A stretch of 64,000 nt of DNA from an uncultured Saprospiraceae bacterium. GTDB taxonomy: Bacteria; Bacteroidota; Bacteroidia; Chitinophagales; Saprospiraceae. How positions within the stretch are numbered: position 1 is the first letter of the stretch; each line of letters begins with the position of its first letter. Both the position numbers and the translations under genes were made by a program. The notes beneath the pieces were generated by a model. It saw only the letters and a list, made by a program, of their open reading frames with translations. It was not told the DNA's origin and made no database searches. The stretch spans positions 1 through 64,000 of the forward strand of contig CAKZSH010000060.1 in NCBI GenBank assembly GCA_937918905.1, given 5' to 3'. This document shows, piece by piece, positions 31,150-61,691 of this stretch.

Positions 31150-31273
31150 TGAGTATTGAAATTTTTTTAGCCGCAGACTTACGCTGATTTTTTTATGACT
31201 GTCGAAAAGCGCGTTATAGAAAAATCATAAAAAAGTCAGCTTAAGTCTGCGGCTAAAAAAATCTCAATACTCA
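31150..31273. repeat. Palindrome containing GCCGCAGACTTACGCTGA
   Basis: TGAGTATTGA..TTTTTTTAGCCGCAGACTTACGCTGATTTTTTTATGA / TCATAAAAAAGTCAGCTTAAGTCTGCGGCTAAAAAAATCTCAATACTCA. Confidence 0.85.
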
Positions 31274-38084: not shown

Positions 38085-38096
38085 CGTTTGAAGATA

Positions 38097-38201
38097 ATGT
38101 GTTTAGGTGTATGTGTGTATAAGTGTATATGTTGACGAATACTTTTGATTCTAAATATTTTCGAAACATATACACTTATACACACATACACCTAAACACA
38201 T
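38097..38201. repeat. Palindrome with perfect 37-nt octamer-periodic arms
   Basis: ATGTGTTTAGGTGTATGTGTGTATAAGTGTATATGTT (38097-38133) and exact reverse complement (38165-38201). Confidence 0.95.
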
Positions 38202-38215
38202 CCTCTTTTTCTTTT

Positions 38216-50578: not shown

Positions 50579-50611
50579 GGGGAGGAAGCTTTTGCTTTCT
50601 TCCCTTTTTTT
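50579..50611 (+). terminator. Rho-independent terminator
   Basis: GGGAGGAAGC tttt GCTTTCTTCCCTTTTTTT. Confidence 0.8.
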
Positions 50612-50773
50612 ATGTGTATATGTGTTAATGTTTACAGGTGTATATGTTTCGAATAATGGGAAGAAGGGAATACGGATTTAAGGGATGGACATTTGTCGAA
50701 TAACGGTGATTTTCAAATTCAAATTTATTCGAAAAAACTTCTCAATTCGTAAATCCGTCTTCCCTCTTCCCAT
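50611..50773. repeat. Composite repeat: octamer-periodic solo arm then palindrome abutting downstream stop codon
   Basis: GTGTATAT GTGTTAAT GTTTACAG GTGTATAT GTTTCG; then ATGGGAAGAAGGGAATACGGATTTA / TAAATCCGTCTTCCCTCTTCCCAT. Confidence 0.78.
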
Positions 50774-55256: not shown

Positions 55257-55512
55257 TATTTTAAATCAAAATGTCAATCAAAATCAAAAATAAATACGAT
55301 GAAAACATCATTCGGTCTTTAACTTTGATTCTTAACTTAACTACCACCTACTGAAAGATAGGTAGGTTAATTTGACAAACGACTAAAGTCGTTTATATAT
55401 TTTTTGAATATCGAACTGAGGGAATATCGAACGCTGCGCTAATAGAACAAGGATTTAAGATTTGAGAACTTCGTGGAGAGTGCTAGGAGATGAGCAAAAG
55501 TTCTTAAAGCCA

Positions 55513-56883
55513 TTAACTCCCCCTTCCAGCTTCGAAGCTGGAACTTCGGAGTACGTACATTTCCCAAATAATTTTCCCCCAAATCAAAATACAAGGCACC
55601 GCTTTTAACACATACGGTATCACGATATTTTCTCTTAAAAATCGGGGAAACAAATCCGTAGGAGAAAGTGAAGTAAAAACAAATGCTAAAACAACCAGCA
55701 CCGTATTCACAAGGTGACTTGAAGTCACCTTATGAATTGCATCAACTTTCTCCATTTCTATTTTACTCAAAAAATACCAAATCCCTACCCCACTCATCGC
55801 AATCACAAAAGTCGGCGACTCCGCTTTATGATTAAAAATTACAACCCAAATTAAGATAGATGCCAACAATCGCCATCTAAATTTATAGTTAGTATATTTT
55901 TTAATTTTAATCAAAGGCAAACAAAACAAAACGACTCCTAACAATACAATCACATTTTTAGAAACATCTAAACCAAACCAACTCTGCAACCATCCCATCA
56001 CAGAATATCCATACGAAGCCGCATGATCTTCTCCTAACATTCTCCACCAACTTTCATACAGCAATTGAAACTGATCCATCGAAATCACCAACAATGGCAA
56101 CACCGTCAAAACAATCACCCAAACTGTGGATGCTAAAATAAATTTTCCTTTTTTGGGATAAACTAAAAATAATGCAAAAGCAACTACTCCAAATATTTTG
56201 ATAAACACAGTCAACGCAATGCACAAGGTACCCAACCATATTTTATCTTTTTCTAACAATACAAATGCTAAAATTATCAACCCTGCCATCAAGGCATTGG
56301 ATTGTTCGTTTTGGAGGGAGGTGAGCATTTCTAATGCAATAAAAACTAGGCACAAGCCCATCACCCCAATGGAAAACGAGTTGTTTTTTTTGAATATCGA
56401 ACAAGGAACAAGGAACAAGGAATTTCGAAGTTTGTCGAATACTGTTGATTCATCGTTATTCGACAAACTTCGAAATTCCTTGTTCCTTGTTCCTTGTTCG
56501 ATATTCATCAGGGAGTTGCCGAATAACTTTGAATCTTTTAGCGGTATGTTTTTTATGGCAAAAAATAGAACTAACGCATTCAATAAATTCCAACATAACA
56601 ATCCAATTACATCTGGCAAAATCGCCAAGGGTGCCATCAATAACGAAAAGGTTGGAGAGTATTTATATAAGTCCCAATGCTCGGAAGGATATAAAATATA
56701 GAGGTCTTTATTTTCAATTAAATGGAAAAAAGATTGTTTAAAAATAATATAATTATTGTATGCGGTATATTGAAGGTTGTTAAAAGTAGTTGGATTTCCA
56801 AAGTAAGATTGGAGTGTTGCACCAAGTGCTAACAATATATACACACCCAAAAGAAATCGAGGATTTGTAAATATTTTCTTCAT
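55513..56883 (-). CDS. GT87/DUF2029-type polytopic glycosyltransferase carrying palindrome-derived insertions
   Basis: SEHWDLYKYSPTFSLLMAPLAILPDVIGLLCWNLLNALVLFFAIK; EMLTSLQNEQSNALMAGLIILAF. Confidence 0.82.
   Translation of the reverse strand: MKKIFTNPRFLLGVYILLALGATLQSYFGNPTTFNNLQYTAYNNYIIFKQSFFHLIENKDLYILYPSEHWDLYKYSPTFSLLMAPLAILPDVIGLLCWNLLNALVLFFAIKNIPLKDSKLFGNSLMNIEQGTRNKEFRSLSNNDESTVFDKLRNSLFLVPCSIFKKNNSFSIGVMGLCLVFIALEMLTSLQNEQSNALMAGLIILAFVLLEKDKIWLGTLCIALTVFIKIFGVVAFALFLVYPKKGKFILASTVWVIVLTVLPLLVISMDQFQLLYESWWRMLGEDHAASYGYSVMGWLQSWFGLDVSKNVIVLLGVVLFCLPLIKIKKYTNYKFRWRLLASILIWVVIFNHKAESPTFVIAMSGVGIWYFLSKIEMEKVDAIHKVTSSHLVNTVLVVLAFVFTSLSPTDLFPRFLRENIVIPYVLKAVPCILIWGKIIWEMYVLRSSSFEAGRGS
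55706..55736. repeat. Compact palindrome inside CDS
   Basis: TTCACAAGGTGACTTGAAGTCACCTTATGAA; shares CACAAGGTGACTTGAAGTCACCTT with 33090-33123. Confidence 0.8.
56391..56507. repeat. 117-bp palindrome with perfect 51-nt arms, in frame inside CDS 55513-56883
   Basis: TGAATATCGAACAAGGAACAAGGAACAAGGAATTTCGAAGTTTGTCGAATA (56391-56441), 15-nt spacer, exact reverse complement (56457-56507). Confidence 0.97.
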
Positions 56884-58218: not shown

Positions 58219-58316
58219 GTGTTAATGTGTATGGGTGTATATGTTGACGTAATAATTTTGAGCAATATAGGGTTCTAATTTATTGCGTCAACATATACAC
58301 CCATACACATTAACAC
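58219..58316. repeat. Palindrome with 37-nt octamer-periodic arms
   Basis: GTGTTAATGTGTATGGGTGTATATGTTGACGTAATAA / TTATTGCGTCAACATATACACCCATACACATTAACAC, 36/37. Confidence 0.93.
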
Positions 58317-61562: not shown

Positions 61563-61691
61563 ACGAGTCAAGGTCTGACTTAAAAAGTCAGGCTTTGACT
61601 TTTATTGACCTCCTTTTTCTATTGACTTTATTTTATATTGATGTTCTCATAAGTCAAGGCTTGACTTGGAAAGTCAAACCTTGACTCGTGC
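61563..61691. repeat. Composite palindrome: two hairpins in inverted orientation
   Basis: ACGAGTCAAGGTCTGACTTAAAAAGTCAGGCTTTGACTT ... AAGTCAAGGCTTGACTTGGAAAGTCAAACCTTGACTCGTGC. Confidence 0.82.

Follow-up and report, generated by a model that had tools for sequence, protein, structure and literature searches.

The window, a stretch of 64,000 nt of contig CAKZSH010000060.1 from an uncultured Saprospiraceae bacterium (genome G000; the assemblies used are drafts), carries at positions 56391-56507 a palindrome built of heptamers that lies inside a gene for a GT87 glycosyltransferase. The gene occupies positions 55513-56883 on the minus strand and encodes 456 residues (Pfam PF09594, E 2.2e-17). 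On the plus strand, the left arm of the palindrome (56391-56441) reads T, GAATATC, three successive copies of GAACAAG, GAATTTC, GAAGTTT and GTCGAATA, and the right arm (56457-56507) is its perfect reverse complement over 51 nt; when three mismatches are allowed, the arms lengthen to 58 nt at 95% identity. Between them lies a loop (56442-56456) in which the arms partially re-pair around TTGA/TCAA. The inverted-repeat score of this structure is 51, while simulated sequence with the same dinucleotide make-up produced none of 20 or more, and as RNA it has a folding energy of -86.7 kcal/mol (z -16). The element measures 117 bp, or 39 × 3, and the reading frame of the GT87 gene is open along its whole length, element included, such that the predicted product contains SLSNNDESTVFDK. 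An open reading frame on the plus strand (56198-56701) encodes nearly the same peptide. The arms, their 7-nt units, the length divisible by three, the membrane glycosyltransferase and the opposite-strand frame had all been described in an earlier note made from the letters of the window, and each was confirmed here.

The palindromic segment is an insertion

The earlier note had further proposed that the palindrome adds some 39 residues to the protein, and the orthologues bear this out. Four congeneric species (G001-G004) have GT87 orthologues, at 74-75% protein identity. In all four, the segment NIEQGTRN...LVPCSIF (about 39 residues) is represented mostly by gaps, although the alignment places a few of the relatives' residues at points within the region, while the flanking membrane segments align well and the genes neighbouring GT87 are the same. 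Because the segment is without counterpart in the four orthologues, between flanks that align and among conserved neighbours, it is an insertion rather than a conserved domain. An AlphaFold model of the protein reached a pLDDT of only 37.

The palindrome belongs to a dispersed family

Searching the genome with the element revealed a dispersed, high-copy family, with 40 scored copies of approximately 100-145 bp among 205 candidates. A 13-mer from the element's end occurs 112 times in G000 against 7, 1, 8 and 6 times in the four congeners, whose assemblies are 66 to 100% complete, and this excess points to a recent burst. Strong inverted repeats in general are also abundant: a 625-kb sample of G000, chosen without regard to the element except for the window itself, contains 19 per 100 kb, compared with 1.7 and 3.7 in samples of G002 and G004 and none in simulated sequence.

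The copies share a common build, in which each arm runs through the GAA-phased heptamers GAATATC, GAACAAG, GAATTTC or GAATGTC, and GAAGTTT, and then GTCGAATA, to a short variable loop followed by the mirror image. The modules vary among copies, and some, such as GCTACGCTAAG, are found in one arm or in both. The two arms of a copy resemble each other more than arms of different copies do (0.735 within versus 0.544 between), yet only 16 of 68 arms, plus three ties, find their best match in their own partner. The loop sequences vary among the 40 copies at the four bases that separate GAATA from TGA (ACGG, ATTG, ATTT, CTTG, CTGG and others), and these bases usually differ between the two arms even though the outer stem matches.

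No target-site duplication, as would be expected of a MITE of a DDE transposon, was detected at the copies: the mean best direct repeat was 3.37 compared with 3.26 for shuffled flanks, a value equalled or exceeded in 23 of 50 shuffles, with element ends that are uncertain by a few bases. Among the end 13-mers listed for the draft genome there is no opposed pair 1-3 kb apart, such as an autonomous partner with these ends would show.

A 24-base stretch of the heptad sequence occurs in many Bacteroidota, including Chitinophagaceae and other Saprospiraceae, where most copies are intergenic or are followed by a plausible ATG; no claim of N-terminal coding is made for them. Four records from Bacteroidota outside this bacterial family (L143, L153, L165 and L183) hold long arrays of the same heptamers, with, for example, repeated SLFLVRYSNLPFKIQD in translation.

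In-frame copies and signal peptides

Most of the 40 copies lie between genes. Six are open in frame with a gene, one being the mid-gene copy in GT87 and the other five N-terminal (C101, C27, C190, C249 and C174). In each of these five, the element immediately precedes the hydrophobic core of a signal peptide, and no ATG separates the two. Four of the products match the periplasmic-binding, OEP/TolC, CsgG and LptC families, and the fifth, at C174, is a lipoprotein without a Pfam match. The ATG at C174 overlaps the TGA of an apparent preceding gene (TGATG), and that at C190 overlaps the end of an upstream frame; both positions suit initiation ahead of the element. In the leader of the TolC-like protein (C27:7648-7780, L124), a GC-rich quasi-palindrome (GGCAAGCGCACCA...TAGCGCGCCTGCC) encloses the element at its centre, and the two may be nested palindromes.

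A seventh copy (C316:6609-6724, L119) is located where an HTTM domain ends, and the frame is shifted after it, so that this gene looks broken by the insertion. At approximately 30 further loci of G000, none was in frame without an intervening ATG. Of the 119 palindromes in the 625-kb sample, the GT87 copy alone is clearly inside a gene and four touch doubtful open reading frames or probable 5' ends, with genes called here by frame length (a codon-use caller misses membrane genes). Coding insertion is therefore no general property of the palindromes of G000. Of the heptad copies, 6 of 40 are in frame, compared with 0 of 118 other palindromes (Fisher 2e-4), a comparison that is not clean, as the 40 had been collected for their similarity to a coding copy and each was examined by hand. 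Signal-peptide n-regions account for about 0.9% of codons but hold five of the six in-frame copies; against random placement this gives P of about 4e-10, for a category that was noticed after the fact. The simplest cause of the concentration is selection against insertion at other sites.

The design of the element offers a likely explanation for the tolerance of such inserts. A tandem array of one heptamer has a period of 21 bases and, because 7 is prime to 3, yields the same cyclic peptide whichever of the three frames is read: (GAACAAG)n encodes (EQGTRNK)n, (CTTGTTC)n encodes (FLVPCSL)n and (GAATATC)n encodes (EYRISNI)n. Owing to the dyad symmetry, either strand reads as a polar, basic part first and a more hydrophobic part second, the order found in a signal-peptide leader. 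The frame-independence is broken by heptamers that yield stops in tandem (GAACAAT, GATTTAA, GATTTGA and GAATAAC). All coding copies fall within subfamily 1, which is poor in stop heptamers and to which the window copy belongs (6 of 21, versus 0 of 19 for the rest; Fisher 0.02). It is thus likely that heptamer design and dyad symmetry together account for the tolerance of the insert. With the noncoding copies of subfamily 1 open in about 23% of frames, the chance that five copies that are not translated should each be open in the required frame is approximately 6e-4.

The same n-regions in sister species

Several of the leaders that carry the element in G000 hold palindromes in its congeners as well. 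The n-region of the C174 lipoprotein contains, in frame, a GC-rich palindrome in G003 and an unrelated one in G001 (CCGCAGAGTTAATAAGGAGTT...), and none in G002 and G004. In the LptC-like gene, the n-regions of G003 and G004 hold palindromes of CAA-phased heptamers, G001 has a short leader, and G002 has an apparent decayed remnant of a palindrome. The gene that follows the C174 lipoprotein carries heptad palindromes in G000 and G001 and a decayed one in G004, while G003 and G002 retain only apparent right-end remnants. Folding agrees with these assignments: intact hairpins have z-scores of -4 to -10, leaders that are empty or retain a remnant score close to 0, and the decayed copy of G004 gives -1.1.

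Beyond the genus, 29 other genera of the family served as a control: their LptC orthologues, retrieved by tblastn, showed no hairpin in the leader. The leader before the lipobox in these orthologues is mostly 11 to 39 residues, compared with 63 in G000; L420, L424 and L426, whose alignments start past the lipobox, do not allow this comparison, and the open stretch of L422 contains no ATG. Genes starting with MNIEQ in G003 and G004 were also considered, but no palindrome is listed for them and the likeness was taken as coincidence.

Origin and spread of the element

Together, the distribution, the orthologue comparison and the shared build suggest that the window palindrome is probably one copy of a dispersed, non-autonomous mobile palindrome, similar in kind to the Rickettsia palindromic elements (RPE), after a recent burst in this Saprospiraceae genome. 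The element would consist of a short variable loop with an arm of GAA-phased heptamers on either side and would settle mostly between genes, with copies made of stop-free heptamers surviving, and presumably being translated, inside genes as well. Inserted in either orientation, it would tend to supply a segment that is polar and basic at first and hydrophobic thereafter, and such a segment may be tolerated in a loop of a membrane protein, as in GT87, and above all in the n-regions of signal peptides. The family, the insertion relative to the orthologues, the open frames and the frame-independence of heptamer tandems are shown directly; from them we infer movement of the element as a unit, its translation, and insertions that are neutral or nearly so.

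Several observations weigh against this interpretation. Neither a target-site duplication nor a linked transposase was found, and movement is deduced from distribution only. There is no pair of close strains with a clean empty site, the nearest comparison being with the congeners. The actual copies mix different heptamers, and noncoding copies of subfamily 1 are open in only about 23% of frames; because the real elements are such mixtures, their frame-independence is a tendency and not a rule. Finally, C101 has no ATG, and only TTG starts could serve it; if translation begins at a TTG within the element, the N-terminal copies could be partly untranslated.

Four other explanations were weighed. 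The palindromes might be RNA hairpins (terminators, RNase III sites or stability elements) that are under selection mostly at gene ends, with the GT87 and N-terminal copies as accidents of their spread. The hairpins are indeed very stable, and palindromes are somewhat enriched between convergent genes (31 of 98 placed palindromes versus 70 of 378 gaps). Yet no U-tract follows the hairpin, the eight flanking bases averaging 2.3 T and 3.2 A; a terminator scan listed none at the element; nothing reached an Rfam gathering threshold, the sub-threshold matches being mostly to microRNA-precursor models; and copy number varies more than tenfold among congeners, all of which makes a selected RNA function improbable as the explanation. 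An origin in place, whereby heptamer slippage and template switching (fold-back synthesis) lengthen and perfect the arms without any mobile element, would account for the closer similarity of arms within a copy, for arms of one copy that differ by whole heptamers, and for modules present in one arm or both. It does not fit the identical order of heptamers and loop at dozens of unrelated loci, nor the gain of the whole design by GT87 relative to four congeners, and is considered just as improbable. Template switching may nevertheless shape the arms and the number of heptamers after insertion, with dispersal left unaccounted for. The earlier note had offered recent insertion or ongoing homogenisation of the arms as reasons for their perfection, and both receive some support, the former from the absence of the element in the four congeners and the latter from modules that occupy one arm or both elsewhere in the family.

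REP/BIME-like elements moved by a RAYT (Y1_Tnp) transposase of the genome provide a further model, in that these too are dispersed extragenic palindromes without target-site duplications. There are four Y1_Tnp matches in G000. However, none of the four loci is flanked by the element, no RAYT is linked to its copies, and G002 has remnants of the family yet no Y1_Tnp match. REPs are also 20-40 bp in length (PMC3733652), compared with about 120 bp for this element. RAYTs are accordingly an unlikely source of the family, and are a candidate mover by analogy only. RAYT-like genes at L089, L091 and L092 have unrelated palindromes of their own nearby (CGCCCTTTCAGGG, GCGCCACCTTTTCAAGG and TAACACGTGGC).

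That the window copy is an artefact of assembly is very improbable. Contigs C15, C37 and C109 end inside an element, and C181, C233 and C275 have one close to their start around which the contig folds back; the assembly of G000 is probably broken up or misled by the palindromes. In the window, though, both flanks belong to one gene with conserved neighbours, the frame is kept, and the loop and innermost arm bases are asymmetric.

Relation to known palindromic elements

Palindromes inserted in frame are already known from Rickettsia, Wolbachia and Yersinia. The RPE and the protein-coding palindromes of Wolbachia measure 105-146 bp and are intergenic or in frame inside protein genes (PMC2229807, PMC10969869); a further precedent is PMC2759123. 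The present element resembles the RPE as a palindrome of roughly 105-150 bp that is repeated in the genome and interrupts, in frame, genes that are conserved apart from it (GT87 and the leader genes), whose orthologues lack it. It differs from the Rickettsia and Wolbachia elements in phylum and in sequence, in being heptameric and nearly frame-independent, and in the small coding share (6 of 40 copies), which consists mostly of signal-peptide n-regions. The likeness is one of design, and no relationship to any RPE sequence family is claimed. The comparison with RPE drawn in the earlier note therefore stands as regards a palindromic, dispersed element read in frame in a Bacteroidota, and falls short in that most copies are intergenic, the sequence family is its own, and the HTTM copy shifts the frame. 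The signal-peptide cases and the frame-independence of heptamers were beyond what that note could see.

Similarly, fusions involving YPAL/RU-2 and ERIC (RU-1) in Yersinia show a small mobile palindrome read in frame, but those are single cases of about 168 bp and are not heptameric, whereas here several genes are affected and different palindromes occupy the same n-regions in sister species. Correia/NEMIS elements of Neisseria comprise a stop-free subtype in reading frames and a stop-containing intergenic one, and have 24-bp terminal repeats and target-site duplications (PMC2229807). Subfamilies 1 and 2 parallel this split, while neither the 24-bp terminal repeats nor the duplications were found here. 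PARCEL (palindromic amphipathic repeat coding elements) are coding DNA with dyad symmetry that is tied to membrane proteins and horizontal spread (PMC2996958); they form tandem 25-residue domains in repeat proteins, unlike the single hairpin insertions in ordinary genes described here.

Units of seven bases also occur in other repeats. TAACTGA, a heptanucleotide direct repeat of Beggiatoaceae, Cyanobacteria and some Bacteroidetes, is mostly intergenic and patchy in distribution (PMC4679880). Both this repeat and the STRR are direct repeats of one heptamer, whereas the elements of G000 are large palindromes of several heptamers. The STRR of cyanobacteria are further heptanucleotide direct repeats. 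The open-licence papers searched, which leave out most of the subscription literature, contained no description of the family or of heptamer palindromes that are independent of frame, and none reported that the same n-regions are colonised repeatedly.

Other palindromes in and near the window

The GT87 gene holds two further small palindromes. The first, TTCACAAGGTGACTTGAAGTCACCTTATGAA at 55706-55736, coincides with a 14-residue segment without counterpart in the orthologues, and its 21-nt core has six matches, counting both strands, in about 0.98 Mb of G000 DNA. The second, a perfect 20-nt palindrome (TTCCAGCTTCGAAGCTGGAA, 55524-55543), falls in the final codons, where the orthologues differ. 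Just downstream of the gene, on the plus strand, lies a decayed or half element of subfamily 2 (GAATATCGAACTGAGGGAATATCGAACGCTGCGCTAATAGAACAAGGATTTAAGATTTGAGAA..., 55406-55473; compare C46, C109 and C205).

Palindromes of 8-nt units (ATGTGTAT and the like) at 38091-38207 and 58219-58316, and also at 50611-50647, represent a second periodic type. Another family, GTCAAGGTCTGACTT / AAGTCAGGCTTTGACTT, is present at 61563-61689 and in the right flank of the copy at C203:19899-20018, and its pieces occur 21-23 times in the same 0.98 Mb. An inverted repeat with GCCGCAGACTTACGCTGATTTTTT arms lies at 31150-31273, and a similar piece is found in the right flank of the copy at C291:18832-18963.

Implications

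If the palindrome is indeed mobile and translated, a lineage of the Bacteroidota would have reached an outcome best known from the Rickettsiales, namely protein-coding palindromes. A unit length that is prime to 3, combined with dyad symmetry, would be a simple reason for its comparative safety in any frame and orientation. A more tentative proposal, which we consider possible but rather doubtful, is that heptad palindromes act as frame- and orientation-independent coding modules resembling leaders, and that unrelated families of mobile palindromes repeatedly and independently colonise, and persist in, the signal-peptide n-regions of envelope proteins in this genus, where they may remodel the leader or tune early translation and export. 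Whether selfish DNA builds or lengthens signal peptides is a question that the differing palindromes at shared n-regions of sister species open to direct test.
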